64,000 nt of DNA from Sphaerolaimus hirsutus (taxonomy: Eukaryota; Nematoda; Chromadorea; Monhysterida; Sphaerolaimidae), in the NCBI GenBank assembly GCA_964036195.1, contig OZ038452.1:4520704-4584703 (forward strand), read 5' to 3'. Below are positions 4,127-51,100 of the stretch, piece by piece (the first letter of the stretch is position 1; every line of letters starts with the position of its first letter). A program made the translations under genes and the position numbers. Under the pieces are notes generated by a model that was not told the DNA's origin, ran no database searches, and worked only from the letters and a program-made list of their open reading frames with translations.

Positions 4127-4570
4127 AATCATTTTAGTTGCTAGTAACCATTTGAGCTTAAAATAATGATAGCCGATTTCTTTCTCTGCAGAACTGCTGG
4201 ATATGTGGTGCCTTTGTTAAAATATACTGTTACAGAAATTGGAAAGCTGACATAAATAAACTAAACTGTTTTTAGTGATAATATTAATGACCCCTTTGTT
4301 ATCTGTTAGCATTTTTGCCATTTGCGCATGCAAAAGCGTTACTGACATTCTGACATTACTAAAGCGTTCACATAATTAGGCTGCTCGATTTTCCCAACAA
4401 AAACTGAGGTCTTTTTTAAGCTGGGTACTTATGTGCCATAGATGTATTTTCGAAAATCAAGGTAAGAAACATTGATCGCTGAAACACGGCGCTTGGATTG
4501 TGCTCGAGATTATAATACTGAATCAGGATCGAGATAGGAATCGAGAGGCGTCACACAAAAGAGCGCCTGG

Positions 4571-4706
4571 TGACAATCCCAGACCCTGTAAAATGTCAAA
4601 TATCATGCAAATGTCACGCAACGTGCGTTGTCATTTTGCAGTGCATTTTACATGAGTTTTGACACTTTGCATGACATTTGACATTTTACAGGGTCTGGGA
4701 CTGCTC
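4571..4706. mobile_element. Family-A inverted-repeat element
   Basis: The arms ATCCCAGACCCTGTAAAATG and its complement CATTTTACAGGGTCTGGGA enclose a short centre. CCTGG (4566-4570) is repeated at 4707-4711. Read on the minus strand, this gives CCAG before and after the element, the same target as the intron-forming copies. Intergenic, 3' of HEATR1. Confidence 0.75.
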
Positions 4707-4888
4707 CCTGGGTAAAACACTTAGTGGATACTGCAGACAATAAATTGTTTCTTAGATATTTATATGCAAACAATTTATAACAACGAAAGTTTATATACAC
4801 AAACAAAAAATTCAATAAATAAATAAATCAACAACTATGGACAACAAATCAACAAATTCGGACAATAAATCAACAAATGTCCAAATAC

Positions 4889-7800: not shown

Positions 7801-10800
7801 GCGCAAAATCTCCGGCGCCATGCGCAGTAGACGGCCGGCAAAAGGCAAATACAGGCCTCGCAGCGTGTTCGCGAGTCTGCAGCGGAACGCAACTAGCATT
7901 GAAAAAATCTCGGGGAAATGTGTATATAAAATATCATAAAATTTCTTTATAGGTAGTTATATTTTTCCTGGATTTCCATAGAGATTTAATCATAATTTTT
8001 GAGAGATTTTCTGACATTTAAAAAAAATATATCAGAAATTATAATAAATATTGCATTCATATTTGTTTGTTTATCTTTTTCACAGACCGATTGAACTACA
8101 GTATTTTTTGAAGATTTTTACACTATATTTTCTCAAAATCAGAAAAAAAGAAAACAAACATACTTGACCGAAAGTCTGAACACGACAATAAGTCGATCTC
8201 TGAGCGCCTCGTCCGACAGCCCCTCCTGCGCCCAGCTGTGCAACCTGTCCATGACGGGCAGCAGCGACTTCTGCGACATTTTCAGCACCATGCATGTGAA
8301 CGCTTCCATGCACGAGTCCTCCATGCGCACGATTTCGGCCGGTTGTAACTGAGCAAGTTTTGAATGAATATTTACAATTTACACAAACCACATTTCAAAA
8401 TTAACTGTAGTGCCTATGCGCACTAGTTGACAACCGAAACTTCCAAAATTGGTAACTATGTTTTGAACACATGTGAGTTTATCACATCGATTAATTTGTG
8501 ATCTAAAACAGCAGTAGTTGGCGGACTCATTATTTTGGTAAACACAATTATTGCGTTAAAAACAAATCAGTTCAGCTTTGGAAGGTTCGTTTATCAACTA
8601 GTGTGCGCAGGGGGCAATCCCAGACCATGTAAAATGCCCTGTAAAATGTCCAATGTCATGCAAAGTGTCAAAAGTCATGTAAAATGCCCGCAAAATGGCG
8701 ACCGAGTTGCCACTTGACACTTTGCATGACATTGGACATTTTACAGGGTCTCGGACTGGTACCAGCGCCATGAATTCTCACCTCCGCACACCTAACTCTA
8801 GTATCAAAAGCGAACAAAAACAGGTCGACCAAGGTGTCGCTCTGCGCGGCTACGTCCGTCGCGCCGCACTTGTCCAGGTGCATGGACAGCACGTCGTACA
8901 CGGTGCTCAACATGGCCGGCCGCTGGGAGAACTCCTTTGCGACCAGTTCCAGGGGACGCGCCAACACGCGGTTGGGCAGCGCGGCCACCCGCCGCTTGCA
9001 CCGACGCACCATGTGACCGATCGCGTCGCGGTGCTCTGGGTGGGGTGTGGATTTGAGTGTGAACGAGGTTGTGACGGGAAAGGGACCAGAGATGTTGGGG
9101 TGCACCGCACCGGACACAGGGTGGCACCTGAGCGTATAACAGAGAAACCGGCAACAGTGCCGGTGCTTTTTAGTGACTATTGTGTAAATAATTGTGCATT
9201 GAAGAGCACATAGTGAAATAATTGAAAATAATTTTTTAAAGTGTTCTTTGAAACTCACTGCACTGCGGGCGAAATGGCAGAAAAGCTGTTTCGCCACACC
9301 TTTTGTCAGCCAAGTTACAGCTCTAATTGCGTTAAACATGTTTTTCAACACCAAAATGAACACCAGTCATGATAGACACATAAAAGGACAAAGGCAACCT
9401 ACTTCAAAACAACAACAATCCACAAACCTCTATTCTCAACCTCCTCCAAACCTCCACCCTCCCTCTCAGCCAAGACGACCAGCAAATCGTGCAGATACGG
9501 ACTGACAAACTGACTCAATCCGACCAGCAGTCTGTGCACGGTGGTCAAACAAGCCACGTGCAGCACGTCGGACTGGGCGAGCAGGTGGGCGGAGCGGAGC
9601 GCGGCCAGCGCCGCCGGCAGCAGCGTGTTCAGGTGCGGCAAAGCGCCCGCGCCCAGGCACGACACCATCTCGCCAGCGCACAGCAGAGTGCTGCCTGGGT
9701 TTGGGAGACGTGATAGATGGGAAAAAAGTCTTTAAACGACCCTGTTAAAAGACGTTAAAAACAACGGCAATGATAGCACTAGCATGAGATAATGGGGACT
9801 GGGGGCAGTCCTAAGCCCTGTAAAGTGTAAAGTAAAGTGTCAAATGTCAAGTCAAATGCAAAGTAAAGTAAAACAAAAAAGAAGAGATTTTATTACTGAA
9901 CATTGCATGACAATTGTAGGGTGTCAAATTTCCGTTTTCCGTTTCCGTTTTCCGGAGGCAAATTTTTTCCGTTTTCCGTTCCGTTTTCCGGCTGCTGAAA
10001 TTTTTTTTCCGTTTTCCGGCAACTTTATTTTCCGTTACCGTTTTTCCGGGTCATTTTCCGTTTTCCGGCTCAATTTTCAGTTTTTCCGCCTATTTTCCGT
10101 TTTCCGCCTCAATATCCAGTTTTTCCACTTTTTTTCCAGTTTCCGCCTCAATTTTCCATTTTTCCGCCTCATTTTACCTTTTTCTGGCTCAACTTTCTGT
10201 TTTCTGATCAGCCAAACTGGTAAAAATTCATGCAGATTGTCAATGATGTGAAAAATTTTCTGTTTCCAGCAAATTTTCAGCAAATTTTACCTGTTTTCCA
10301 GCAAAATTTCAGCAATTTCCGTGCAAATTTGATTTTTCCGTTTCCGTTTTTCCAGCCTCTTTTTCCGTTTTCATGCCGCTGAAAATTTTTTTCCGTTTCC
10401 GTTTTCCGCCAAGTGCAAAATTTTTTCCGTTTTCCGGCCGCTGAAAAAATGTTTCCGTTTCCGTTTTCCGGAAAAAAATTTTTTTGACACCCTATGACAA
10501 TTGACACTTTACTTTGCATTTGACTTTACATTTGACACTTTACTTTACACTTTGCAGGGCTTGGGACTGCCACCTGATAAACGATACTTTTTCACGCAAG
10601 AATTCATCGTTACGGTTCATCATAAAATCACAAATCTTTCAAAAACACACCGAATAGGATCGGCGACATATCGGCCCATTTTTCAATCAACTTGCAAAGA
10701 CGCGTCAATATGTCGCTGAAAGTGTGCGTGTCGTGGGCGGCCAGGGTTCTGCTCAACAATTTCAGTGTGAAGGCAGAATTTTGTGCCAGCACCGAACTCT

Positions 10801-13800: not shown

Positions 13801-16800
13801 GCGTTTCTCTGGCGCGGAGACGATTCCAGTTGGTAACCAAATGCGCTAATGTTTGTCCAACCAAAATATGTAACACGTGCGCCTGCTGCATACCAGTGTC
13901 ACCTGAAAGTTTAGAAATGCTGTTGAAATACTGTTCACATCCTTGAAATTCGAATATGCGAGATGTCAAATAATCCGGGGGCAGTCCCAGACCCTGTAAA
14001 ATGTCAAGTGTCATGCCAAGTGTCTAAAGTCATGTAAAATGCCCTGCAAAATAGAAAACGCGTTTTACAGGGTCTGGGAGTGGCACCAATAAAAAAAAAT
14101 AAACTAAAAATGTTACATTTCACATGATTTTAGACACCTAAATGACATTTGCATTTTACAGGGTCTTGTTCTGCCCCACACCCCCCCTCCCCCCAACCTT
14201 TATCTCGCTCATCATGGACATAAACTGCGCAGCGGCGCACCACTGCCGCCAGCAGGGCGTCCCTCCGATGCGCGGGCATTTCATCGGCGCCGGACGCGAA
14301 CGCGCTGCAAGTGTGCGTGATCCGGCTGCGGCGCGTGGGCCAGTCCAGGGTCGACTGCGATTGCGGGTAGGTTTTTGAGGGAATATGAATAAGAGTTCCA
14401 TTGCGGGGAGGTTTATGAGAGGAATTGAAAATCAAAATAATGTTGGAATAAAAATGCTTGGATAGTTTACAGTTTGACACGCTCAGAGGAACTTCAATTC
14501 ATCAAACGAGCCCTGAAAGTTTTCACACAATCTGCGAAATCGCAATATATGGTAATCGTGATTAGCATTGAAAAAATCCCGGGAGATTTTTTATAACACA
14601 AAATATATAAAAATATAGTTGATAGGGTGTGTTGAGTGGGTTATGTCAAACCCGCGAACTTTAGGTTTCAGTGATCAGTGACTATCCTTCACTTTTGTAG
14701 TATGATTAGTTCAGTCTAATAAAGTCCCAGTATACAAACTTGGACCCGGGGTTGAGGGACCCCCTCATAAGTCCCTCCAAACTGGTGCCGCGACTGTGCC
14801 CGACCGTGCCCGACTGGACCCGACTGCCCGACTTGCCCGACTTCATCGACTCGACGTCGACGACACGTCTACATCGGGAATATTCATCATCAATCGACCG
14901 ACATTGCCCGACCTACGACGCTGCCTGACTACCGGCTGTCACTCGATGTCATCGACTGGACGTCAATGACTAAGCTGACTACCAGCTATCGATCTACATC
15001 TTCAACTGGAAGTCAACAACAAAGCCGACTACTTGCCGATTACCGTTACGACAACGCAACTACTCACTGACAGACAACGATGTCAACAATTACGTACGAT
15101 GCGTTTATTGGTTTTGTGGACCAGTCGCTAGCTAACAAGGATCGAACAAAATTCCACCAGCTGCGAAATATTCTAAAGGCGCACAACCCCGACGATTTAT
15201 CAGATGATGAAGAAACGTGACGCAAAATGTCTTTTGAGCGCTATGCTGACAAGCTGAAAACGGTGGCCACTGCGATTCGAGATACCGGTGTCACCAATTT
15301 ACTGGATCCACTACCATCGCGACAATCTGTGGCTGCGACAACTGCATCGTCATCTGCTCCCGCCACTACATCGGAATCCCCAGAACTGATCAAGCAGCTG
15401 TGCACGTTCATGAAATCGATGATGGAACAAACACAAACAGCGCAAGCCACAATGATGCATGAACAAAGAGAATTTTTTATGCTCATGGCTAACAAATTCA
15501 CCGGCACAACGGCAGATGCAGGCAAGGCCGAAACTGGCACTTTGCCACAGGCTGACGTCAATTTGGCTGCATCGCCGAAGTATGCTGTTCATGAGAAGCG
15601 TCTATGGGCTCCATTGTTGGAAGAACGATTTCCAACATTCGATGGTGAAGATATGCTGAAATTCAAGCTGTGGCTCAAGGATTTGAAGGCGCGCATTCGA
15701 CTCACGGAGGCACCCGATGAGTTTGCTGTTCTTCACGTGCGAAAGTGTTTGACTGGTCGAGCCCTGCGACAATTTGAACGTTTACCAGACGAGGACCAGG
15801 AATCATTTGAGCAAGTGTGCGACTTCTTGGAATCACAGTACGGTGACCATTTCTCTGCACAAAATGCGATGAACAAATTGGTCAATTTGCGACAACGCGT
15901 CAAGGAGCCAGTCCGCGATTTTGGACTTCTTGTTGATAGTTTGGTGCGACAAGCGATGCCAGACATTCAACCTACGGCACTGAAAATTCAACTAAAGCAT
16001 TATTTTATGTCTGGATTGGGCAACCAGCTACTGCAAAATTCACTATACGCACTCCCAACCTTCGAGTTGATGTCATTCAAGGAGCTAGTCGACAATGCAG
16101 AACGACTCGAGTTTGCAGACAATAGAGTGAGGACGTTAGGGAAGCCTGGCGATGTGTTCTGTGTCATTCACAACAGCAAGACACATCACACCAATGAATG
16201 TCAACTTGCTCTGGATATGGGAAAAAATGTGGCCAACGACAGGCAGAAAAACCAACGGGGTGGACTATCGACTGGCCGCACCTTCAATCGACAGCAAAGT
16301 AGCCGTGGCCGCTATCCACCAAGAACGCAGTCGACGTTCCGGCAATCTCGACCTAATGTGGATCGTTTTCCTGCCCGGCTGACACCTGACAAGTGGTGCA
16401 GATTTCACAACTCCATTACGCACAATACGGAGGATTGCTACAGTCAACGGCAGTCAAGTGGAAACAAACCATTCAACGCCAACAGACCGCCAATCAAGAC
16501 GGAGTGGCGACAATCGAAAGTCAACCAGATCCAGTTTGGGGCTGAGACTGAGGCAGATTTGGGGCAAAATGCGCAAATCAATCGCATTCAACACGTTCAA
16601 CCAGCGAAGCTGTGACGTGCAAATTCGGCAATTCAAAGGCCAACCGACCTACTGCCTACATCAATGGCATTCCATTTTCAACTTGCCGACTGGACAATGG
16701 CGCTGATGTATCAATTGTGACGCCATTTGTTGTGAAGAAATTGGGTTTACCTGTGAATCCGGTCAAGAAGACGCTGTTTGCTGCTAATGGGACAGCGATG

Positions 16801-19800: not shown

Positions 19801-22800
19801 TATTTGTTTTGCGATCATTGTGTATTGTACCCTGTATCATTTTATTCCTTTTGTAAAGATATCCAAATGTGTGTTGTGTGATAGCAGCTGCTTGTGTGAA
19901 ACCCATTTATGTAGGTGATCTTGTGTGATGTGTGTTTTTGTCTTATACCTTTATCTCTTTTTGATTATACGTGGTCGCATAATCTTTGTTTACCCCCGAG
20001 GAGTTGATAGGGTGTGTTGAGTGGGTTATGTCAAACCCGCAAACTTTAGGTTTCAGTGATCAGTGACTATCCTTCACTTTTGTAGTATGATTAGTTCAGT
20101 CTAATAAAGTCCCAGTATACAAACTTGGACCCGGGGTTGAGGGACCCCCTCATAAGTCCCTCCAAACTATATATCATATTTCTTTAAAGCTTCTCCACGG
20201 TTTTTAGAGAGTTAAAATTATGTTATTTCTGAGAAGAAAATACATAAAATATATCTTTTATATTTTTATATATTTTATCTGCAATTTTCTAGAGATTTCA
20301 TAAAATTTATTTATTTTAATTATATATTTTCTGACATTAAATTTTATTTTATTTTCCCAAAACCACCAATATTGTTCAATGCTAATGGGTTACGCAACCC
20401 CGATGCACCCTCAACCCCCCTAACCGAAAGCAGCGCGTCAATGAGCGCGGCGCAGGCGGTGGTGAGCGCGTGCAGCGTGTCGCCGCGGTCCACGCCGGAC
20501 AGCTCGCCGGCGGCGCCCATGAACGTGAACATGGCCATGGCGCGCTCCACCGCCAGCTCCTTGTACACCGGCGCGCCCGCCGCCAGACACCGCACCGCAG
20601 CCCCGTGCACGCGCGCCGATGATTTGCACCTGCGCGGCCAACGTGTCAATGTGAAGTAGCGTTAGAAAAAAATAGGTTTTAGCAGGGTTTTTTAAAATAT
20701 TTTTTTAAAGCCGGTTTGAAAAACTTAAGTACTAGTGAACCAGCAGCTGTGGGCAACTAACACCCCTGGGCAACTGCGCTCAGTGAACCATTGTGCGTGC
20801 AGTAAGCAGTCTAAAAAGTGCGGTTAAAAATGCCCCTGTTGCAGCGGAATGTTGGGAATGCCCGAACGGCAGGTAAGCTACAAATCAGAAACACGTTTGA
20901 TCAGTAATCGAATGATTTCCGCTAAAATGTACATGAATGCCAGAAAACAATAGAAAGACAATAGAAAACATGACATCGGAAAACAATGTCACTTCAGGGG
21001 GCACTCCCAGACCCTGTAAAATGGTACGTGTCAAAAGTAATGTAAACTGTCAAATGCACAAAATGTCAAACTCATTTGAAACTTGACAGGTCATTTTCCA
21101 CGATTTGACATTTGACACTTTACAGGCTCTGGGAGTGTGTTGTTAAAAGACCAGAGTTGTTAAAAGTACCGAACTTTTTTCAAAGTATACGTAAACGTAA
21201 AGTATTTATTTTTTACTCACCCCCTGAGTACAGAAAACGTTAAGTATTTTTTTTATTTTTACTCACAAGTAAACGTACTTTTACCGCGAGAAAACGTAAA
21301 TGAGAGTATTTTAGAAAAATTGCGACCCATTTTTCGGTCGAAATCACTAAGTTTCTAAACTTTTCACCTATATTCAGCACGTATTGGATACAATTGTGCT
21401 TAAACACACATTTTAGATTATTTTTCTTTATTTTTACCATATTTGCTCCCATTTTTCCGTTTTATGCCTTTAAAAGTCTATATAAAAGACTATCTGAAAT
21501 ACGTTTTCTGTACTCGAGTACTTTCAAAAAGTATACGTAAAAGCGAGTACTGGAACTTTTTTCAGAGTAAACGTAAACGTATTTACTCAGTACTCGAGTA
21601 TACGTATTTTGTGAGTAAAAGTAAATACGTTTTAACAACTATGCACCAGACCTGCGGGCGCACTTGACCACCGCGTCCAACAATGCGGGCTGTTTGGCCA
21701 CCGCCTCGCCGCAGCCGGACGAAAACAGACGCCTGAACACATTGGCGGCCGCGTCGACGCTCAGCTCCAGAGCGTACGCGCGCTGCGAATCCAGCTGGTC
21801 CACGGATGATTGTCTGTAAACATGGGGGAGGTGGAGACAACTTTGTAAAGTGCCCGATCAAGTGACAAGTGTCGGACAGAGTCGTATTATTCACTGGTAT
21901 TTATTGTTAAGGGCGTTGCCGTTGCAGCATACAAGTATAATAGAGAATTTAGCCCGGCCGCCACTGTGGTCAAGCGTTCATGTCATGTAAAGTGTTGTGC
22001 AGGTTCGATTTCCGCTCATGGCAGTGAAAATTTTGCACTTTTCTTCATGCATCTTTGTGTAATCTGAATTTTCTCTCTCAAGCTGAATTGACGTTTGAAA
22101 CATTCTACAAAAATAGTAATGGAAGAAACGCAAACGCGCTTCAAGAATCGTCAACTGACTTGTCAATTAAATCAAAAAGAGCGCGGAGAAGCCGATCGCT
22201 CCCATTCAGAGAAAAGCGTTTGTTCACTTTGATCGCCTCAGCCGTAGTCAACGCAAGTGCGTCAGAAGAAAAAACTGGTTCATTTTCCGTTCCGTCCACA
22301 CTGGCATCCAAGGTGTCAGCCATGTCGCCGGCGTCGAATGTAATCTGAAAACAATACACAATATATTTTTGTAGGTGCCAATTCTGCGAGTTGAGAGGTA
22401 AAAAATTAGAAGTGAGAATTTGAATTTTTAGATAAATGACAATTTAAAAAAAGTAAATTTAGAAGTGAGACATAAAAAAGTTATTCTATAAGTCGTTACT
22501 TAGCACTTAGAGTTTACTTTTCTTTTAAATTTTTACTCATCTTTTTTAACTTTCACTTCTCATTTTTTTACTTCTCAAATTGAGCACTAGAAAAAAAACT
22601 GAAATTGATAAATACTTCACCAGTTTCAACCGATTTGAAGCGATGCGGGCACATTGCAACATTTCAGAGTCTTGTCCACTATACGCCGCTAAACGGCACA
22701 TTTTGCCGAGTGTCGCTGCAGGAATCTTGGTGTCAGCTTTGATCTGAAAATTATTATTTAGAATACCGTATTTCCTCGAAATACCCCCCCTCGAAATACC

Positions 22801-25800: not shown

Positions 25801-28800
25801 CCAACATTGAAGCCAACGCCAGTTGACTGTCAGAATTATCTTCCAACATGTGCTGAGCGAAAATGTGAACTGATGTGAGCGACATGAGATTATAAAGTAA
25901 GAAGAACGAACGAACAGATGCGAAACATTGACAAAATCTGGCGATCACATCGGCAGAAATTGTCAGCGAGCAGCACAGATGCGCCACCATGACGCAGCCG
26001 CATTGGAACATTGCCAAAACATCTGATCTGAAGAAGGAAAAAAAATTTCAAATTTAAAAAACATCGATAAAACAGAGAAATCAAAATTTCCCACCTGAGA
26101 GCAACGAAAACGTGCGGAATCAACAATCCAAGCAGTTTATTCGTTCTTTTATCGTCTGTCAACTGCACCCTTGCCTGAACCACGCCAGTAACTAGGGAAG
26201 CCGCGAACGAAAATAAACACGCGTATTTGCGACTGACGTACGCCTGCGGCAGTACCTGCAAACATATAAGTGAAGTTTCGGTTTAAAGCGATATTTGAAA
26301 GAGTACAAAGATGTCGATAGGGTTACTTGAATTGTAATTTTTTAAACTTAGCTTTTTCCAGCGCCAAATGTATTTTCAAAATCACATAAGCACGTTGATA
26401 AAATATTTTGATGAAATGGTTCAGCCGCACCCAACACCCAATTCGCCCAACGCACACTAGTTGACAAGGACATCGGATGTCAACTGGATTGACTGGTTTC
26501 CATTCAGATTTTAGTTGACGGGTCGCCGAACGATGTTCGAATGCACACACCAAAATTTAATTCATTGTGGACATTACCGCTTATACTATCACCCTGGAAA
26601 CTGTCCCACGACCCGTCAACTAAAATCTGAATAGACATAAAAACCAGTTGACACCCAGTGTGCGTTGCGCCATGGGCTACAAGGAATCCTTTCTAACAAC
26701 TCGAGAGAAAAACAACAGATCATCACAAACCTCAACGGCCCTATTCAACCAATCCAAATACGCGGTGACAACATTGGGGTGGTGCTCCACCAGCCGCACC
26801 AAGTTCACCCTGCTGAGCGGCTCGCCCGCCTCCCCGCCGGCTCTAAGCCACGCCCACAGACGGTCGTCGCGCTGCGGGCGACACAAGCGCACGATTCGCG
26901 CGAACAACTGCGCATCGTGCCAGGCGAGCGAGCACAGAAGGAGCGCGCTAGTGTTGTAGGTTTGGATGGAGAATCTGCGAGGAGGGAATTTGTTTTTTTT
27001 TCGGGGAATGTAAAATGATAGTATTGTATTTTTACATCGAAGTGACACATAAAACTAGAGACGGAAAAACCTGTCTCAATGATCGACGAAAAAAATAAGA
27101 ATGAATCAAGAAATTTCTTTCTCTAACAAGCTGTCAATTGAAAATGGGCACCAAATTTTTCAAAAAGTAACTTTCACGCCATCTCCAGGTGGCTCCAATC
27201 AACTCAACCGTCAGAATAGCCTATGAGTATGACAATCAACAACACTACAACAATTTGAAACTCTGCAGAAACGACAGCTCAGAAAAACGTCAGCGTTTGG
27301 TCACCACACTGCTATCAGAAATTCAGAGGCAGCCTAATTAAGCCACAACTAGTGCATTGGCACATTGTTTTCATGTCCCATGTCAAAACTTCCGAGGTAT
27401 ATGTTTACCTCGTAACGCTTGGGTAAAAACCAGCGAGGGCATGGTGATGTGATGAATATGTGTCGACTGAAACAACTTTTATACGGGTTTTCGAAAATGG
27501 AACTTCTTCATTGGGTTTAGCGATACTGAAACCCATTAATTTTTGGATTTAGCGATCCTAATAGCAAAACTTGAACGTTCCCAATACCGAAAACAAAACC
27601 AAGTCCATGTCCCGATCCCGAAAAATATCAAATGCGAAACAGAACGATGAGAAATCAGAATGGAAATCTCGAATTTTATGCCAACTACTATGGCATCCGC
27701 GTGTGTACTTGGACCTACCTGTGAGGAGAAATGCCCCACACACTTTTTGGCTAAAATTGAATTTATGATTTCGAGAACCCAAACCCAGAAAAGTCAATCT
27801 GGAGTCAATCAAACTCAACAGCCACACAAATCACAATTAAATAAAAGCGTTAAAGGTCATAATGTCAGAAATAAAATAAGTGTCAGCCACCTACACAACA
27901 CCATCTAGGGTTGCCACTTGACTTTTTTCCAACCCTAACACCACCGGATTATTCAAGCGAAAGCGACCTAGGGTACCCCCCAGTGGTCAAAGCCAAAAAT
28001 TGTTCACCACTAGGCTAGCTAGGGTATCAGGTATTCACCTTGTAACAATTAGGTAATAACCAGTGGGACATGTTAAGACATCTTATAGATTTGTTGACTG
28101 AAACAGCTATTTTACGGGTTCAATATGTTCAATTGCATTTAACCGTAAACACAAAATCGATGTGCAATTCATTTTTGAAAGGATTTTCAAGAGCACCACC
28201 ATGACTAGGGATGGAAAAAAGCGTCTTTTCAACGGCCCCGGCCCCGCTTTTTTATAAAAAAGCGGCGTTTTTTAAAAAAAGCGCTGGCCATCCCTAACCA
28301 TGACCACAGTTACAAAAATAGCTGAAAGAGCCCTGTCACACGTAGGGTGTCAACTTTCCGTTATCCGAAGGAAAACTATTTACCTTTCCGTTAGAATAAT
28401 TTTCGACACCCTAGTAGCACGCCACCCCTACAACCTGCAAACAAGCCACTCCAAGGCTTTTTGAGCGGCGCGCAGCGTCATAAAAGGCGAGACGAGCAAG
28501 AGGAACTTGTCGATGTGCTCGTTCAGCTCGGAGTTCTCGTCGGGCGTGAGCGTGGCCCTGTGCACGTCGGCCGACTTGGCGCTGAAGAGACGCTCGCGAC
28601 ACACTTCGAATGCTCCGTCGATGGCGCACAGTTCGTCGAAGCCCTGCGATGAAATGAGAGCAGACAGTAGGGTTGGGTTGGCCAGCGATTTTTCATCAGA
28701 CTTTTTTTTAAATAGCAGCGTCGTATCAGAGTGAAAAAAATCGCTGGAAAAAAATGTTTGTGCAAAACACAACACAAACTACAAAATTTTGCTACATATA

Positions 28801-29950: not shown

Positions 29951-32900
29951 CTACAAAACGTCTGGTGAGGCCTCTTCAGTATCACTTTTTCCATCCGATT
30001 CGTTGTACATCCCCGCTTGTGTGGAGATCACGCTGCAAAAAGACGAACACATTGAGCCTACACGCACTAGTTTTCACTGTGACTTCGGTCAAAACTGAAT
30101 TTTTTTCTAACGCAAATTATTCAAGAATGATTTAAGTTACTTTAAATCTGAATTTAAATTGATGAAGGTTAAAATTTAAAAATTGAAAACTAAAACACAT
30201 ATAAATAGCATATAATAAGAGTAATTATAATAGATAATAAGAGACTGGATGTCGCTATGTCGCCATTTCAGTTTTCACACAAGTCACGGTGAAAACTAGT
30301 GTGTGTCGGGCCATTTAATTAACCCCAAATGCAAAAATATTCCATAAGAAAACACCACACACCTTCCCTTGGTGCGAGTTTTCGGGCCCCAATTTTTGCC
30401 CTTGTTGTCTTGGAAGCGCAGTAATCCAGCGACCACTGACGGAGGGGTAGCGTCGGGGTGATCAGTGAAATCAACTTGCAATCTGTGATCATAAGGGGGT
30501 TGACAATTTGCACTTGGATGGTGTTTCAAAAATTCCAAAATATATTTAGAAATCTCGAAAATATAAAAATCTCTCATTTAATGCCTATATTTTAATATTA
30601 GGTTGAAATTATTAATATAGATTTTCCATAATCTTTTTTTCTTTTTCTGAGATTTTTGCAAATTCATAGAAAATCTCTCAAAAGTATTATTCACATTTAG
30701 CTCAATTCTATCTAGGTCTGGATTTATGTTTTCCAGGTTTCTAGGGAGGTATTTGTGCGAATAAATGAGTGGGGAAAATCTATGTTTCGTGAATGTCAAC
30801 TTGAAAGTGGGAAAAATGTCAAATTAGTTTAAATTGTGTTCAAAAAATGCAATCCTCGGAAATGTCAACTCAACAGGACATAACACCCCGCCCAAACGCA
30901 CTTTGGTGTTTGAGACATAATTCGCCGGCTAATTGGATCACCTTGCGCATCATCGGATGGTTTCAGCTGTTCGCATTTTAACGCCTGCAAAGTATGCATA
31001 TATATATATATATATATAACATTACGGGTTTTTTTTAAATTTGTTATTTTTTTTTGTATTTTTTTACCATTTATTTACAATGATACCGACAACGAAGGAC
31101 AAAAATTCCCGATCGGTAAAATCGAGTGAGGTTCAATTGCTAATGCCATATGCCGGATCAATTTCTAACACAACAGACAGTGCCAAATAAAGCACATTCA
31201 AACAAACCATAGCAACCCACAAAAAAAAACAAATAACACCCAACCCAAAACCCACCCAGGACCTAATCACATCCCACACTACACCCGCAGGGGCGTCAGT
31301 TTTCACGCCCCTGGGTCTGGCGTGGGTGATGCTGCACTTGTAGCCGGCGTTGAGCAGGGCCGACTTGAAGGACAGCACCTTGGGCGCGGGGCACTTAGCC
31401 GACTTGCACATGCCCGACACGTCGTAGTACAAAGGGCTGTCGGGCAGCTCCTGGACAAGAGGGGAATGAGTGAGTGGTTGGAATGGATAATATTTATGGC
31501 AACCACGAGCCTGTAAAATGTCAAATGTCATGTCATTTGCCATTGTAGTATTTGATTGAATTACTACAATATTAAATATTGTAGTAATTCAATCGAATAC
31601 TACACCATGAAGTTAAATTACACGTAAACATAAATTTTGACTGATTTTTTCAGAATAACATGCCTTTTGAAAATTGTATGATATTTGACATTTTACAGGG
31701 TTTGGGAGTGGCACAAGGACCTGGGTTCAGGGTTCAAACGAGATCCCGACCGAGAATCCCGATACTTTCCGCGCTTCAACGGTTCCGGTCCCGAAGCCCC
31801 AATCCCGATCCCGAAATTTGAAAATATCAATCACGAATAATAACCGGTGTAAACTGTAAAACTGCCCAATTTACTTCAGTCACCACTGTGAGCATGCCCA
31901 AGAGGCGGTCGTGCGTGCCCAGCCGCGGCTCGCTTTTCAGCGTTGCCAGCAGCCGATTGACAAATTCGTAGTCGTGCAGTCGATCAGACCAAAATGGCCC
32001 CCCAATCTGCATCAGCAAAAGTGTGCATTATCTGCTACGTTGGGGGGTCATCGTAACCAAGTAACCCTGAAATTAGTTTTCATATTCCTGTGGGCTCTTC
32101 ACAGATAGGCAAGTTTGGGTAGAATTTTCGAGGGGTTGCCAGTCGGCACGCAGATATAACTAGTTGGAGAATTCGGGGGTATGCCCGGCGAGTAACGAGT
32201 TGTAGCTATTTACGTACCGACTGGCAGCCCCCCACCCCCTCAAAAAATGCTACTCCTGATTTTGTCTGTCTTCACAGTGAACTGTGCCGCACGCGTAGAC
32301 AAAATTTGGGGACAAAAAACCCAAACAAAGAATTTTATACAACATTTCCAACAAAAAAAACACAAAAAATCGCACCCTCATTCTCGAATCACAATGTGCG
32401 CATCTGGTAGGAACAGTGGGCCCGTGAGCGGCCGTGAACTTGACTCCGCCCTTGGCGCCCGGCTCCACTTGCGTAGCCAATGGCTGCAGTTCCGTAGTTT
32501 CGCACCCGACGCAGTAGTAGATCATGCAGCGTTTGGTCACGCTGCTTTTCGCTTGCGAAGCGCCGCTTTTCACGCGCACGAATATCCGCAGGTAGAAGTC
32601 TATGCTCAGCGATAGGATCTGCGAGCGGAAGGTCGAGTTACGGTTAGGGATGGCCAGCGCTTTTTTTCAAGCGCTTTTTTTTAAAAAAACGCCGCTTTTT
32701 TTTAACAAAAGCGCAAGGGTCCCAGCGCTTTTTTTAAAAAAAAGCGCTGGCAAAAAATTTTGTACTTGTGCACTAGGTATTTTGCAATTTTTTCGCGCGT
32801 GAGCACGCAATTTCACATGCAAATTGCCATTGGTGGTTGTTTTCATTGGTTTTGTGGCATTTTTGTGCCATTGCTTCTTTTCCTGCATGGTATCATGTTA

Positions 32901-35523
32901 TAATAAGTTGTGATATGTCAGTCTAGTATATAATATCCAGCCAATGTGCTCCCACATACTTCTACAGAGTGTAACATCACTGTCATGCATTAGCCTTCTC
33001 TTACAACGTAATTTAAGCACTTTTCCATGCCTAACTTCACTAGAAGTCATGAAACATACACAAACAGCGATATACATAACGAGTCAACATAACATTGGAT
33101 TTTTGTGGCAGAAATTAGGACTTATAATGCTATATCATGATTACACAGCAATTCTATGGCTATATATCATCACAAGTACTACCACTTGTCTGATATACCT
33201 GTATATATTGACTCAGAACACTATTTGGGAACTTTTTAGGTACCGTCTTGACATTTTTTGAAAAAAAGCGAAAAAAGCGCGTTTTAAAAAAAAAACGCTT
33301 TTTTTTAAAAAAAGCGGGGTCGTTAAAAAAAAGCGCTTTTTTCCATCCCTAGTTACGGTAAAAATCTCATAAACCGCTTCGGAACCGCTGAATCCCGAAT
33401 TTATTGGGATTTGGGATCCGGATCGGGAAATCTTGCCAGAACTTCCGCCAAACCTTTTCATACCTTTTTGCACACATTCACGTTCAAAATCATTAGCTCA
33501 TGTGCCTTATCCCTATTTTCGATCCCACTCATTTCACCAAACTGCCAACGACACATGGTTAGCGTGTAAACTTTCCGTTTTCCGTTTCCGCAGGCAATTT
33601 TTTTTCTGTTTCCGTTTTCTGGCTGCAAAATCTATTTTTAATTTTTTCCATTTACAGCAACATTTCGGCAAATTCTTTCGGTTTCCGGCAGAATTTCAGC
33701 AAATTTTTTCGTTCCCGTTTCCGTTTTCCGGCCTTCCATTTTTCCGTTTTCCGGCAAGTGCAAAAAAAAATTTTAGTTTCTGTAAAAAAAGTTTTTGTTG
33801 ACAACCTACACCTGGCGCAACCACAAAGCCATCGGACGGACGCACCGGCAGAATGTACCTGTCGTAGACGTTCGCCCTGGCGTCGACGCACTGCAGCACG
33901 ATCCTGAGCGCCAGCTCGTGGCACGCGCGCGCCCTGAACGGCATCGCGCCGTACTTCATGAACGCAGCCTCGGGGTGGTTGCCGCACAGCGTCGCCACGT
34001 CCGTGCACGTCACCATGAGGATACCTGCGGGTGGAGTAGGGGTGGAAAAATGTCTTTAAAGGGCCCCGTTTTTTAGACAATGTTTAAAATACGCCGGCCG
34101 TAACCAGGTAGGATTAACTTTTTTTATGCTATATTAACCAAAAAGCTGAAAATATACCTAGAGGTGCGGTAGATAACTTGAATTTCCAATTTAAAATAAA
34201 AACTGGGTGTGCAGAAAATAATGCAACAATTAGTTACATATAAGGGACGAGCCGGCGAAGACATTTTTGGCGTAATTTCACGTTTTTGAAGCTGAGTTAT
34301 GAAAAACATCCCGGGAACATTTTGAGTTACTGGGACGTATGGGATGGGCGCAATCTCTCTGTTATAGGGCCCATGATATCCCTTTACCCCATTATCATTA
34401 TCACGCCCCGCCTAAAAAGCAACCAAAAGGATCTAAACAACGCAGCAACCAATCACCATCATCCTCCACACACTGCACAGCGGCATCGATGAAATGCGCC
34501 GGCGACCCGTACGGATCGATGTCGACCACGTCGAAGCGCGTGTCGAACTTGCGGTGTGTGAACATGATCGCGCTGGCGTCCTGAGGGCACTCCCAGACCC
34601 TGTAAAATGCCATGGAAAATGAAAAATGTCATGCAAAGTCTCTAAGGTTATGTAAAATGCCCTGGACGTACGTTGCCATTGTGCAGGGCATTTTGCATGC
34701 CTTGCGACACTTTCCATGACATTTGACATTTTACAGGACATTTAACAGAGTCTGAGAGTGGCACCTGATAGTTAGCGTGCACGCTTTCCGATACGCCATT
34801 GGCCTCTATGTTCCGCTTGATGCAAGCAACCGCAGAGGCGCTAAAATCGTTGGCGATAATTTTTTCGATGCCTGGGAGCGATAATAAAACGGTATATCCA
34901 ACTATTAAAATAGGTTAGAAAATGTCAGAGCTGTTAAAAAATCCGTGAATAAAAAGTATACAAATTGGCAAACTGCCAAACCTTTAACTTCTTTCGCAAA
35001 TCTAATAGCGCGGAGTCCAGTGGCCGAAAGCGCTTCCAAAACATGCAAACCCCTTCTCTCTTCCAGTCGTCTCAATTTCGCTTTGGGCGCAGTTTCATCA
35101 CGCAGGAAGGTTTGACGTTTCTCGTTCCATTCCGCACTGAATGCTCGCAATACGGTAATCCTGAGAAAAGATGCGAATTTGATTTCTCATCATTGGCAAA
35201 GTTCCAAGTTTATGTATTTACAATGCAGATGGGAAAACGTATGGAAACCCGCAGCACCATGCCTGACACATCACAGGCGTTTGATCGGTTCAGCGTTGCT
35301 ATATGGATTTGATAGATCAAAGGAAAAAAACCGACGTTAAATCCCGATTGAACTCCTGCACGGGATTGTAAAATGCTTTAGAAGGACCGTCGAATGAAAT
35401 TGTCGCCTGGCCTTCCGTGATCGTAGTTCCTCCGTCGGCTGACATGTTAAACGTCGCCAACGTACGTTTGCACGTTGCTAACACCAAACGTAGATAAGGT
35501 CTGCGAGAGGGCAAAAGCACCAT
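29951..35523 (-). CDS. TRMT1: TRMT1, tRNA (guanine26-N2)-dimethyltransferase
   Basis: Exons (minus): 35523-35336, 35160-34982, 34871-34765, 34580-34457, 34024-33846, 32618-32376, 32006-31875, 31450-31256, 30984-30902, 30482-30363, 30032-29951. They total 1632 nt, or 543 aa, with all phases consistent. The enzyme uses SAM to make m2,2G at position 26 of cytosolic and mitochondrial tRNAs. Landmarks in order: FYNPVQEFNRDLT, SAM-binding LHVLEALSATGLRAIRFA, catalytic DIDPYGSPAHFIDAA, KYGAMPFRARACHELALRIV, LSLSIDFYLRIFVRV, a Cys4-like pair (CVGC, CAHC), GGPFWSDRLHD and KTDAPAGVVWDVIRSW. The first 26 residues are basic, without acidic residues, before a second Met (35445), suggesting dual targeting. 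The C-terminal CCCH finger of vertebrate TRMT1 is absent. Intron 3 is a transposon. Confidence 0.96.
30062..30306. mobile_element. Family-M inverted repeat
   Basis: The ends CGCACTAGTTTTCACTGTGAC and GTCACGGTGAAAACTAGTGTG are inverted (arm interruptions aside), with an A/T-rich centre similar to that of 24773-24993. It lies in TRMT1 intron 10. Confidence 0.65.
30997..31018. repeat. (TA)n microsatellite
   Basis: An uninterrupted TA dinucleotide run just upstream of TRMT1 exon 9, in intron 8. Confidence 0.9.
31507..31714. mobile_element. Family-A element with a long central hairpin
   Basis: The outer arms GAGCCTGTAAAATGTCAAA and TTTGACATTTTACAGGGTTT are inverted. A nearly perfect hairpin occupies 31544-31604, with arms around GTAGTATTTGATTGAATTAC. 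It lies in TRMT1 intron 7. Confidence 0.65.
31728..31845. mobile_element. Degenerate GATCCC-word element
   Basis: It starts CAGGGTTCAAACGAGATCCC and continues with CCCGATCCCGAAA words. It resembles the left arm of the hAT elements at 12530-12680 and 46062-46660, but no right end is visible. Confidence 0.5.
32645..33351. mobile_element. hAT-type non-autonomous element, AAAAGCG-word arms
   Basis: The termini TAGGGATGGCCAGCGCTT and AAGCGCTTTTTTCCATCCCTA are inverted (interruptions aside). GTTACGGT is duplicated exactly (32637-32644, 33352-33359). The core resembles, inverted, that of 39139-39802. It ends 27 bp from the acceptor of TRMT1 exon 6. Confidence 0.88.
33565..33806. mobile_element. TTTTCCG-word element, diverged ends
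   Basis: An array of TTTCCGTTTTCCG words starts after TTAGCGTGTAAAC and ends at GTTGACAACCTAC. It belongs to the type of 9917-10494, but its ends are degraded and no duplication is evident. It lies in TRMT1 intron 5. Confidence 0.55.
34581..34764 (-). mobile_element. Family-A element forming complete TRMT1 intron 3
   Basis: On the minus strand the intron starts GTGCCACTCTCAGACTCTG and ends with the inverted arm CAGGGTCTGGGAGTGCCC followed by TCAG. TCAG is also the last four bases of the preceding exon (34768-34765), so TCAG duplicates the target. The GT donor is element sequence and the AG acceptor is the duplicated target. Joining the flanking exons keeps the TRMT1 frame in phase 0. Nothing else is in the intron: the 184 bp are the element. 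Confidence 0.85.
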
Positions 35524-45100: not shown

Positions 45101-48100
45101 TTTTTAAATGAAATTTCATTTTTTAAACAACGTTTTTTTTCATCCAACTCGTTCATTCACTGACTTTTTTGCGTTTGAAATTGCAACCATTTGGTGCACG
45201 AGAGAAAACATCGATCTACTCGTGTTCAATTAACCCAACAGAATCGCAACACGCAGCCGCCTGGCCGTCGTCTTGCGCGCAGCACTTGTCGCTCGGCGGC
45301 GAGCTCGGCGCCGCCACGATCGACATCGACGGCGACGGGCCCTTGCAGCCGATCAGCGTCATTTGCACTCGCGAACACAGCCACGGTGAGCATTCTCGTG
45401 GCACTCTTGATTGGTTCGATTTTTGGGATGGTTTATATGATTGTGTCATAAAAATAATATAGAAACAAATGAAAAATGGTTTTAAAAATTAGATAATGCT
45501 GTCCTCACATCCGCCAATGTTGTATGGCTTCCAATAAAACTTGGCACGCAGCCAACTTGGACGAGGAACAAAGTCCCGATGTGAACACGGTGGTGCGCGT
45601 CGCCTCTACAACGGCTACAAGCAACGGTGCCGTGGCTCAGCTGCACGGCGCTGCCGGCGCCGCGCGACGCACATTGACGCCCGACTATGGCGACGCTGGC
45701 GACATCAGCGGCATTTTGTCTTTGATCGCCGCCAGCGGCAAGTGCGCCCAGCCGGTCAACTACGCCTGCGGCAGAAATGCGCCTATTATGAATGTGAACG
45801 GCGCTAGTGGTCGGTTTATTGCGAGAATGAATAAAACGGATTCGTTTTATCCCATTTTGTTGCTATGAACATGCAATCAAAGTGTCCATTGATAGGTATT
45901 TATCCAGGTTGATAAGTCCAAAATTTCAAAAATTGGGTTTGCCCTGGAAACATGGCCTAGGGTTGGTTTCGCCAATTCAGACTGTTTCCAAAAAAAAGGT
46001 CACCCGCTCCTTTATAAGTGTCACATTTTCACGTTTTTTAATGAATTTGCCGGGCATGAAGTAGGGTTCAAACGGGATTGACTTTTCGGGATCAGGATCG
46101 GGATTCACTTTTTGAGATTTCGGGATCGGGATTGACTTTTCGGGATCAGGATCGGGATTCACTTTTTGAGATTTCGGGATCGGGATTGGGGTTTCGGGAT
46201 CGGGATTGGTATTTTGAGATTTCGGGATCGGGATTGGGGTCACGGGATCGGGATCGGGATTGGCATTTTTTCGGGATCGGGATTGGGGTCTAGGAATAAA
46301 GATTTTTGTCACTGTTCTGGCATTCACAGTTGTTCATAAAGGTCTCAAAACACTGTTGGATGCCAGAAAAGTGACATAAAATGGACGCTGGGGGTTTGCG
46401 TTCACATTTTTGCATGCAAAAATGTAATTTTTTCACTTTTTTATAATTTCCACTATTTTTTCCGGGATCGGGATCCCGGACTTGGGAGATTCTCGGGATC
46501 GGGATCGGGATTTGAAAGTTTTCGGGATCGGGATCGGGATTGGTGTTTTTGGATTTCGGGATCGGGATCGAGATTGGGGTTTCGGGATCGGGATCGGGAC
46601 TGCTAAATCCCGGAATTTCACGGGATCCGGGATCGGGATCGGGATCCCGTTTGAACCCTAGCATGAAGTCGATAAGTCTACTCTTGTCTCAGTTTTTCAA
46701 TTGCAAGAAAGTTGATAAGTCAATTGTGGGCACTGACTTTTAGCTGTCGATTAGTCCATAAATAAATCATTTTTCCAGGTTTATCGGCAGTTTTATCCGT
46801 CCCGCTCCACTAAGGAAACTGAAATCTGAAACTCGCTCAAAATCCAGTTTTTCGCACTTTTACACTTTTTCTCTCAACTTTAAACTACACCCCTGATAAT
46901 CATCACGCATCCCCCCCCCCACACGCCAGGGGTCAACGGGAGCGTGTCTGCGCGTCTGTGGTGGCTGGGCCCGTCGGCGGTGCCGGTGTTCGCGTGGGGC
47001 GACGCGATGCCGGACAGCCGCATGTGCGCCTGCGGCGTGCGCGCCACGTGTGAACACCCCGATGCGTGGGTTACGGTTTGGTTTGGTTGAACTTGATTTT
47101 AGGGTCGGGAGTAGGGTTGGGATATGACTTTTTGATGTCGATATTTGACATTCGATATTTTTACTGAACTCGGTATTTATTCGATATGGAGCCGATAGTC
47201 GGCAATGGATATTTTACAAAACTTTCGATATTCATATGAAAAAAGTTAATGTCCCATATTAAATACGATATATTGTGCCAACCCATATACAGTTTAGTAG
47301 GTTTGAGAGGTGATCACAGTGCATTCATACAGAAGTGTTTTTTCCTTTTAAATATTATATAAACCTATGCTCACCTTGCTTGCAACCTTTCAAATATTTT
47401 CAAGAGAAACTTAAAAACTCGTGAGTGGGGCAACTTTCGTGGCTAAGTTGGGCATACACTTGTAGGGAAAATCATGCCTGACAAGTGTATATAGTTCACA
47501 TTTGTCAACTACTTCTTGGGTGCATGCTGTGTGCCAGAGAATTTTTTTTGTGCATTTATGGTTGCTCATCATTGTTACAACCCTGGCTTGTTTTTGCTAA
47601 AATACCTGATTTGCAAGGTCGAATTTTGTGCCAATGGTCTTGAACGTGACCCCTGGTTCATTGTCGGTGCACACATTCAATCAAATTGCCACATGAGCGA
47701 TTTCAGGTGTTTTAGGTGGCGTGTTTTTGGCACTCATTGTTGTTCTCATTACTTTTCATGCCATTGTGATGCCATTTTCATGCCATTGTGATGCCAAAAA
47801 TGTCATTTCCATTCATCATCATGGCTAACCTGCTGAGCTTGGATCTGTGCAAGCAGATTTTTGCCCTGCAGCAGGATGGTAAATGTTTTAAACATGGTCA
47901 ATGACCTTTGCTGCTGAAATTGATGGCCCTTCCAGCAAGCTGCAGCCAATCAGGATTTAGAAAATGGTTCACACGATATCTGGCACTGTAGAAGAATGTT
48001 CAAGCTTCACAGTGGGTGCTTGCACAAGTGTAAATATGTTCACATAAAAATGAGTAAATTGAGTTTTAAAATACTTTACTCCCAAAAATTGCAAAATTAG

Positions 48101-51100
48101 TAGTAAATTGGCATGGTAAAAGATTTTTGAACTTATTTTACTCATTTTTATGTGAACATATTTNNNNNNNNNNNNNNNNNNNNNNNNNNNNNNNNNNNNN
48201 NNNNNNNNNNNNNNNNNNNNNNNNNNNNNNNNNNNNNNNNNNNNNNNNNNNNNNNNNNNNNNNNNNNNNNNNNNNNNNNNNNNNNNNNNNNNNNNNNNNN
48301 NNNNNNNNNNNNNNNNNNNNNNNNNNNNNNNNNNNNNNNNNNNNNNNNNNNNNNNNNNNNNNNGAGTAAATTGAGTTTGAAAATACTTTACTCCAAAAAA
48401 TTGCAAAATTAGTAGTAAATTGGCATGGTAAAAGATTTTTGAACTTATTTTACTCATTTTTATGTGAACATATTTACACTTGTGCAAGCACCCACTGTGA
48501 AGCTTGAACATTCTTCTACAGTGCCAGATATCGTATGAAGCTATTTCTACATCCTGACTGGCTGCAGCTTGCTGGAAAGGCCATCAATATCAGCAGCAAA
48601 GGTCATTGGCCTTAAATATGTTTAAAACCTTTACCATCCTGCTGCAGGGCAAAAATCTTCTAGCACAGATCCAAGGTCAGCAGGTTAGCCATGATGGTGA
48701 CTGGAAATTACATTTTTGGCATCACAATGTCATGAACATTCTTCTACAGTGCCAGATATCGTGTGAACCATTTTCTAAATCCTGATTGGCTGCAGCTTGC
48801 TGGAAAGGCCATCAATTTCAGCAGCAAAGGTCATTGACCATGTTTAAAACATTTACCATCCTGCTGCAGGGCAAAAATCTGCTTGCACAGATCCAAGCTC
48901 AGCAGGTTAGCCATGATGATGAATGGAAATGACATTTTTGGCATCACAATGGCATGAAAATGGCATCACAATGGCATGAAAAGTAATGAAAACAACAATG
49001 AGTGCCAAAAACACGCCAGCTAAAACACCTGAAATCACTCATGTGGCAATTCAATTGAATGTGTGCACTGACAATGAACCAGGGGACACATTCAAGACCA
49101 CTGGCAAAAAATTCGACCTTGCAAATCAGGTATTTTAACAAAAACAAGCCAGGGTTGTAACCGTGGTGAGCAACCATAAATGCACAAAAAAAATTGTATG
49201 CCCAACTTAGCCATGAAAGTTGCCCCATTCACAAGTTTTGTAGTTTCTCTTGAAAATATTCGAAGGGTTGCAAGAGAGGTGAGCATAGGTTTAGATACGT
49301 ATGTCATTTTACACGTCGACTGTCGCTATCGAAAATTTTGAATTGATGTCGACCGAACTGCATTTTGTGGTTTTACGAACAGCTAGATAAAATACAATCC
49401 AAATTTCTGCCTAAACTTTAAAAAAAAATCAAATTACAAATTTGCAGTGTGTGCAACTGCGACGCCATAAACACGCAAGGCGGCACTGAAGATGGCGGTC
49501 ACATTTTGGACAAATCGCATCTACCTGTAACTAAAGTGTTTGTCGACGGCCTCACTACGCCGGCTTCCCAGGCCACTGTCACAGTGGGCCACTTGACTTG
49601 CAGCCACAGTCGTGAGTGGGTGGATTTTTGAATTTAAATTTGAAAAGAATTGTGCACTGTAGTTTGATATCACCTCTTAGATTTCTTTATTTTTAATTTG
49701 GTATTTATGCGGAAAATTTACGTACGTTTTTTTCACGGGCCCGCATAGCACCTGTAGAATGAATTTAATTTGACCACCTGTTAAGATTTTATTTTATTTT
49801 TGTTCAAATTGGTCATAACTAATTGATCATAAATATGTCGCAAGGGGAGAATTATTCAAAGGGGGAATTTAATTTTTCCTCACTCGCCTTCCAGGAGGAA
49901 TTATTCAAGTGAAGGGGGGATTATTCAAGTCAACAACATATTCACCCACAAAATCTCAATCAATCCCAGTGTTCATCACGCCGGTCACGCTGCTGTCGCG
50001 CTGGGCGCACCTGGACGTGTCGCTGCCCAGTTCCGAGCGCGGCGCCGGCTCGCCCACCCCGTCCAGCATGGTGTCGCTGCAGCTCGACTTCCGTACGGCG
50101 CACGGCAGCGGCGTGATCGTGTCCAACGCAGCCGGCGGCGGCCACGAGTGGTTCAAGATCTTTTTGGAAGGTTTGCCTGGGAGCTTGAATGGGGTGGGAA
50201 AACCGTTGGAAAAAAAAACCGTTTTTTTAACTCGATGTGTTTTTTAAAAAGCTCCCAGATATGACCTAGTGTCAACATATATAGGTATATCAGACAGTGG
50301 CAATACTCTGTGATGTTAAATATGACCATATAATGGCTGTGGAGCCATGGGATAGCATAATAAGTGGTGATTTGTGTCAAAAATATCCATTTTTTGTCGA
50401 CATGTTCGTATATCGGCTTATACTCGAATGTTCGTGACTTCAAGTGAAGTTTGGCACGGCATAGTGATCAAACAAGGTTATCAAATGAGGTTGTTACTTT
50501 GGGAGTGAAGTTACACACTGTGGAGGTACATCGGAAGCACATTACCTCAATATTATATACTACATCAACATATGACGGCTTAATCACCCATGGTAGCACA
50601 TAGAAATGCATGATTTGATACTAAAAATGCTACAAAACCAATGAAAACTACCACTAATGTCAATTTGTGTGTGAAATTGCGCGCTTGCGCGCAAAAAAAA
50701 AACGTTTAAAAAAATATCGGCCAACCCTAGGTGGGACGCTAATTTCTTGTTTACTATCCCCTGAACCCCCTCCCTATCTTCCAGCTTTCAACCTTCAACC
50801 CCTTTCAATCTGGAGCGATATTTGAGAAATTTGGTCCTAATTGTTGCTCGAAATCACTTATTTTCATACCTTTGTTAAGATTTTCATCTTCAAAATCACG
50901 ATTTCATGTTTTATTGCCTATTTTTAGCTAATATATATGTGCTTGTATCGCTATTTTAGCTATATTTCCCCTATTTTTAAACTATTTTCCTATTTTCATC
51001 CTTTCTCACCTCGAATAACCTATACCATTAAACCCCTGAGAACCCCCCCCCCCCAGCCCCCGAACAATTTTCAACTAAAATTCTCATATCCATAAATCGC

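Follow-up and report, generated by a model that had tools for sequence, protein, structure and literature searches.

How an intron can begin and end, to the base, where a transposon begins and ends is the question raised by the third intron of TRMT1 in the window, by which we mean the whole stretch of 64,000 nucleotides of DNA that was analysed. On the minus strand, exon 3 (34765..34871; limits set by hand, as for exon 4) closes in phase 0 with ...ESVHANYQ, its last letters being ...AACTATCAG at 34765, and exon 4 (34457..34580) opens at 34580 with GACGCCAGC, encoding DASAIMFTH... Between them lie the 184 bp of intron 3 (34581..34764), which runs GTGCCACTCTCAG...GGGAGTGCCCTCAG from 34764 to 34581 and whose 3' end can also be written GAGTGCCCTCAG. 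An earlier note on this DNA had taken the entire intron for an inverted-repeat element of 184 bp. The length of the intron and the coincidence of its ends with those of the element stand, but the hairpin MITE proper comprises only 181 bp (34764-34584, minus strand), to which a 3' CAG (34581..34583), one copy of the target duplication, has to be added. The other copy of this 3-bp duplication, the 5' CAG at 34765..34767, is the final codon of exon 3. The 5' arm (34681..34760) and the 3' arm (34588..34667) of the inverted repeat are 79% complementary over 80 nt, and the DNA strand from 34770 to 34577 folds with -51.5 kcal/mol, compared to -21.4 +/- 3.1 for shuffled sequences (z -9.85). The intron carries GT at its 5' end and AG at its 3' end, as expected of the U2-type GT-AG class. 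The presumed donor GT (34763..34764) is formed by the first two bases of the element, whose GTGCCA end makes a weak donor, and the AG of the 3' CAG would be the acceptor, an assignment of splice sites that the earlier note had already made and that we share. Reading through the element leads to stop codons in the frame of TRMT1, and the intron length of 184 is no multiple of 3.

When the intron is taken out, the exons join in phase within a conserved enzyme domain, as had been proposed: the alignments of the joined protein (ANDFSASAV...ESVHANYQ|DASAIMFTH...DIDPYGSP) with two solved Trm1 sequences continue across the junction. In the alignment with 2dul the junction is gap-free, with insertions upstream and a three-residue gap farther downstream, while the alignment with 3axs contains a one-residue gap two residues before the junction. 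TRMT1 intron 3 is thus bounded by element ends and restores the frame on removal. In our view it is very probably a transposon-made intron, an introner, of a family found in an animal, with a GT contributed by the element and an acceptor contributed by the duplicated target; that these sites are spliced and that the intron was gained here by insertion, we infer from the letters. An older, ordinary intron might instead have stood here and later been replaced or overwritten by the transposon, and TRMT1 intron 7 (31874-31451), an ordinary intron, does hold a decayed copy of the family (31510..31714, minus strand) in its interior, away from the intron ends. At intron 3, however, both element ends agree to the base with the presumed splice sites, the CWG on either side is what an insertion would leave, and unrelated genes show this anatomy as well, which renders such a replacement very improbable. 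The other six TRMT1 introns, read by hand, are all GT-AG, with varied donors.

A TRMT1 query of 155 aa matched one place in the genome, and we therefore found no second copy of the gene there that lacks the element. Among the 120 protein matches listed, the best homologue is that of the nematode Steinernema (52% identity), several further nematodes stand near the top, and no transcript-derived match of this TRMT1 to itself occurs. In a midpoint-rooted tree of this one gene, with 42 rows of which 41 were chosen by hand from the 120 matches, the TRMT1 of the window joins ten rows that are nematode or placed among nematodes, with a support of 97/94; together with four rows comprising Trichuris, Trichinella and Romanomermis, they form a set supported at 100/100. 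By its sequence, and in this one-gene tree, the host TRMT1 groups with nematodes.

The element belongs to a large family. Throughout the genome (348 Mb in 762 contigs), a 29-base element end was found at 13,556 places with up to 3 mismatches, and a 26-base end was found exactly at 1,525 places, compared to 0 for a reversed-pattern control. Since the opposite end of the element differs by only about two bases, one copy may count twice; were this so for each copy, the 13,556 matches would correspond to about 6,800 copies. The family consensus, GTGCCANTCCCAGACCCTGTAAAATG...GGGTCTGGGANTGCCCC, is an almost perfect palindrome of 190 bp, the ends of which can be told apart as GTGCCA on one side and TGCCCC on the other. 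With its inverted-repeat ends and a CWG on both sides, a 3-bp duplication, it bears the hallmarks of a transposon. Many copies lie within 4-8% of the consensus, in line with the suggestion of the earlier note that the family has recently been active; the TRMT1 copy itself, at 14.5%, is among the more diverged ones, and the suggestion does not extend to it.

Upstream of the 1,525 exact ends stands CAG in 705 cases and CTG in 554, together 1,259 (83%). The earlier note had described the duplicated target as the 4-mer TCAG, and TCAG is indeed present on both sides of the TRMT1 element. We nevertheless reject a 4-bp duplication for the family: among 70 copies flanked by C.G at either end, there are 30 in which the 5' CWG is preceded by a base other than C, and in 29 of these the element ends in C. 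The duplication therefore amounts to 3 bp, CWG, and TRMT1 owes its extra matching base to a T in this element where the consensus has C. In GC-rich copies the target extends to CCWGG (C at -4 in 23/35, G at +1 in 29/35), while in 14 AT-rich copies this preference is not marked (C at -4 in 4/14, G at +1 in 6/14). PIF/Harbinger (Tourist-like) MITEs duplicate 3 bp, classically TWA, in contrast to the CWG of the present family. Among the literature matches listed, none describes CWG as a target duplication; the string occurs there in one paper, solely as author initials. The W often differs between the 5' and the 3' copy. In the sample unselected on flanks, the 5'/3' pairs were A/A in 10 cases, T/A in 7, T/T in 6 and A/T in 1, with two others, such that T at the 5' side with A at the 3' side is commoner than the reverse by 7 to 1. 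The element may, for example, carry an outer CTG...CAG of its own during transposition; alternatively, selection for AG might have produced the mismatch. Such selection is not visible in exons, 14 of 29 sense-coding copies being CTG/CTG compared to 21 of 36 others (p 0.46).

Is TRMT1 an isolated case, or do other copies interrupt genes in the same way? We collected 109 copies, 39 through their resemblance to the TRMT1 element (L009-L047) and 70 by an exact end with CTG upstream (L048-L117, taken as 30+20+20 from the first contigs listed and hence selected for a 5' CTG), deleted from each the element and one CWG, and translated the joined flanks. Of these, 40 joined proteins were picked by eye from ORF lists and scanned against Pfam (E <= 1e-3), and in 16 of them a domain runs through the junction (L011, L013, L015, L017, L021, L025, L028, L034, L037, L038, L052 (twice), L062, L069, L086 and L087; the 3' boundary of L013 is shifted by one base, and the scores of L017 and L038 are under the curated cut-off). 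The domains are ribosomal L40, innexin, AMP-binding (two cases, one antisense), Na/H exchanger, ligand-gated channel, TIL, bromodomain, M24 (read as SPT16-like), sushi, ASC, trypsin, permease and cullin, and one chondroitin N-acetylgalactosaminyltransferase gene has two element junctions about 1 kb apart. The glutamate receptor (L021) aligns gap-free with 7ysv over 101 aa. In the remaining 24 proteins the Pfam match is absent, weak, or stops at or beside the junction; they include L059, which has no match and whose query carried residues of another frame in front, and L109, an IFT70 that aligns gap-free with 4uzy over 92 aa and supplies a 17th junction. All 17 hand-picked junctions thus lie inside known domains, with one of them antisense, namely an acyl-CoA synthetase copy (L015) that is in frame in its conserved domain. 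For all 37 hand-listed copies we rejected the idea that the element serves as read-through coding sequence, as 36 of them bring in a stop and one a frame shift (L037, though in this list, is outside the usable set described below).

For a count independent of our eye, we built a codon-usage model from 1,216 codons of TRMT1 and L009-L047, for which reason L048-L117 constitute an independent set. Usable copies numbered 86 of the 109, with 23 left out (22, plus L053 as a repeat of L052). At threshold 5, 26 of the 86 are inserted in sense orientation and in phase, 6 sense but off phase and 1 antisense in phase, while 53 are not coding on both sides, which means that the family also occurs outside exons. 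The 26 of 32 sense copies that are in phase compare to an expectation of one third (p 4e-8), and in the independent set the corresponding figure is 16 of 20 (p 3e-5). Other thresholds gave similar distributions, with 29 sense in phase, 7 sense off phase, 2 antisense in phase and 1 antisense off phase at threshold 4, and with 21, 3 and 2 (sense in, sense off, antisense in) at threshold 6 and 17, 2 and 2 at threshold 8. Among the sense calls, L063 (17/17) and L075 (8/8) are nearly tied with the other strand and L062 (35/32) with the off-phase reading. In 40 of the 86 copies both flanks have a GC content of at least 0.5, compared to 4.4% of window sites.

Orientation is equally skewed. With the joint score set at 10, sense copies outnumber antisense ones by 29:2 (p 2e-7; 65 copies in the three main flank classes, leaving out 21 with rarer flanks), and by 29:4 at a joint score of 8. 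By class, the ratios at score 10 are 14:2 for CTG/CTG (35 copies; 14:4 at score 8), 9:0 for CTG/CAG (20 copies) and 6:0 for CAG/CAG (10 copies). We rejected an asymmetric target as the cause of this bias, because CCWGG is palindromic and because 2,412 nt of coding sequence contain as many CWGG as CCWG (23 each). By gene structure, then, like sequences stand as introns in unrelated conserved genes, at 17 hand-picked junctions and in 26 of 86 usable copies by the automatic count, and nearly always with the GT end placed 5'. The introner reading of the earlier note is supported at this level, and a hairpin transposon has probably been giving rise to new introns in the genome of an animal.

The mechanism that we envisage begins with a non-autonomous hairpin DNA transposon that would insert at CWG, in GC-rich DNA mostly at CCWGG, and duplicate the CWG. 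Were it to land in an exon such that the GTGCCA end lies upstream, the element's first two bases would serve as splice donor and the AG of a duplicated CAG as acceptor, and removal of GT...CAG would restore the original exon. Yet removal seems to be no less exact where the 3' target copy reads CTG. The 26 sense in-phase copies divide into 11 with CAG at the 3' junction and 15 without AG there, 13 of the latter showing CTG and the rest CCG or CGG; plain GT-AG splicing thus does not explain them. The share of 15/26 is raised by the selection of 70 of the 109 copies for a 5' CTG, but in the sample unselected on flanks, 4 of 10 sense in-phase copies likewise end without AG.

Could the copies ending without AG simply be unspliced, as harmful recent insertions or residents of dying genes, with only the CAG-ended ones being introns? 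Of 18 non-AG copies, 9 lack a nearby in-frame GT-AG pair with a net change under 30 nt (the options of L023, whose 3' boundary lay one base off in this test, are unreliable), and canonical splicing could therefore hardly rescue those copies; in some others, an in-frame pair would add three codons via GGGAG|TGCCCCCTG. Several observations nonetheless make it doubtful that CTG-ended copies stay in the message. They are not younger by median divergence, which for copies in exons or elsewhere is 7.8% in CTG/CTG, 9.0% in CTG/CAG and 7.9% in CAG/CAG; CTG/CTG copies share the sense bias; and copies of this kind occupy reading frames that are conserved and intact (IFT70, glutamate receptor, permease, trypsin). 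Moreover, the paralogues L082 and L083, one of five pairs compared that were chosen for element presence in both members, each retain a CTG-ended copy. Their adjoining 109 codons encode an identical peptide with 4 nt changes, while their elements differ at 14 of 190 positions. Taken together, the lack of a nearby AG option, the age of the copies and their retention in L082/L083 make removal without AG at the junction likely, albeit unproven. The route may be either GT-TG splicing or excision of the hairpin.

The main rival for the non-AG copies is SOS splicing, a pathway that works in C. elegans, where paired inverted repeats trigger it. Here, the hairpin would be cut from the mRNA without the spliceosome and the pieces re-ligated by RTCB, exonic copies being no more than tolerated insertions. 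The elements do carry paired inverted repeats in near-perfect hairpins, with median RNA MFE values of -100 to -135 kcal/mol depending on flank class, copies without a junction AG are common in exons, and the pathway is present in metazoans according to the accessible part of PMC13247085. A hairpin has no direction, though, so that SOS splicing should, by our reasoning, be indifferent to orientation; the observed ratio of 29:2 (29:4), which persists within CTG/CTG, points instead to a need for an upstream GT end, and we regard SOS splicing as unlikely. The same bias weighs against somatic excision at the DNA level, akin to that of ciliate IESs, in which the element would be precisely removed from DNA and one CWG restored. 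Such exact restoration would suit any pair of flanks, including CTG/CTG, but the assembled genome, whatever its source tissue, contains the elements, we know of no IES-like somatic excision system in nematodes, and we consider this scenario hardly credible. Returning to introners, we think it about evenly balanced whether one hairpin family has given a nematode-like animal a hundred introns or more, with a large share of them lacking a 3' AG (GT...CTG, where the junction is formed by the target copy) and still being removed to the base, the figure being an extrapolation from the 16 of 70 fetched CTG-flanked copies that are sense in phase to the 554 CTG-flanked exact ends genome-wide. For those without AG, the hairpin and an AG 9-19 nt farther upstream might let the spliceosome finish at the CWG, or a hairpin-triggered excision pathway might have turned into a routine splicing route.

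Elements of this kind have counterparts elsewhere. Huff et al. are said to have described, in 2016, DNA-transposon-like introners of Micromonas and Aureococcus whose element ends are the intron ends. In Chrysochromulina, as presented in the part of PMC9860276 around its Fig. 2C, an introner carries the 5' splice site, co-opts the 3' site and duplicates its target. All three features are common to the present family, but no TIRs were seen there and the target has 4 bp, as opposed to a near-perfect hairpin and a 3-bp CWG. From these three cases our family differs in its animal host and in its many exonic copies without AG. In Amoebophrya, a dinoflagellate, the available text of PMC7789003 reports introner elements with inverted repeats at the intron ends, 3-5 nt direct repeats at the junctions and non-canonical borders, again shared traits; those inverted repeats, however, measure 8-20 nt and the borders are highly varied, while here a single family has a fixed GT and a CWG.

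Among animals, a survey of 3,325 genomes found introners in many protists, fungi and two animal groups, copepods being one, according to the available part of PMC9860276, in the main text of which the strings 'nematod' and 'tunicate' are absent. Like the animal introners of that survey, the present family appears to be transposon-made, with the distinction that the present TRMT1 groups with nematodes. A paper on intron gain in nematodes names introners, in its accessible text, only as found elsewhere (PMC9169325), and among the literature matches listed, which leave most subscription papers and preprints outside their coverage, there is no report of introners in nematodes. With respect to unusual splice sites, fewer than 10% of the introns of Fritillaria borealis, also an animal, are GT/AG, as stated in the portion of PMC13326754 at hand, in contrast to the host of our family with its six other TRMT1 introns of GT-AG type. 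Human GT...TG introns have an AG nearby, within 28 nt, and TG is never the sole 3' site in the excerpt of PMC2374985. In 34 of 36 CTG-ended copies, counted inside and outside exons, an AG lies 9-19 nt before the junction and hence inside this limit; unlike in the human case, splicing to the upstream AG at 19 nt would disrupt the frame, and to that at 9 nt would add three codons.

The origin of introns is a long-standing question, and transposon-made introns are reported from only two animal groups in the text available of PMC9860276. A family with many copies, in a lineage grouping with nematodes, would place this process near C. elegans, with its genetically tractable splicing. The CTG-ended copies of the family, finally, would test how far the AG rule reaches in animals, and would also test where the line runs between splicing and the excision of transposons from RNA.

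Besides the element that forms TRMT1 intron 3, the window holds further copies of the hairpin family at 4567-4710, 8608-8762, 13975-14089, 20998-21144, 31510-31714 (inside TRMT1 intron 7), 58679-58827, 60917-61248 and 61855. These additional copies are for the most part degenerate, and none of the four that were scored lies at an exact coding junction. An apparent donor, GTGAGA, is found about 18 nt ahead of the start of the copy at 8608-8762. The window also contains a large inverted repeat distinct from the hairpin family (47896-48611), with 184-nt arms of 92% complementarity spaced 348 nt apart, and recurring AT-rich stretches with AAAAAAGCGCTTTTTT-like cores (28210-28290, 32640-32760 and 33250-33350), apparently another dispersed repeat.

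Among the copies fetched from the same genome by similarity to the TRMT1 element (L009-L047), the W bases of the 5' and 3' CWG target copies pair as A/A in 10 cases, T/A in 7, T/T in 6 and A/T in just one. Given the rarity of A/T, it looks as if CTG...CAG travels with the element at transposition, a possibility suggested by analogy with piggyBac-like elements. Two of these loci, L014 on the unplaced contig C108 and L027 on the large contig C2, are near-identical, with 98% identity between their 5' flanks and one CTG/CTG insertion common to both, and are possibly alleles or products of a duplication. A chondroitin N-acetylgalactosaminyltransferase gene (L052; contig C1, ~5.42 Mb) has been entered twice by the introner, at points separated by about 1 kb; the 3' end is CAG in one copy and CTG in the other.

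The ordinary introns of TRMT1 (minus strand), their donor positions assigned by hand, begin with GTCGGT, GTTTGG, GTGATT, GTGCGT, GTGCGA and GTAAAT; given this diversity, weak donors such as GTGCCA, the element's own GT end, may be usable.
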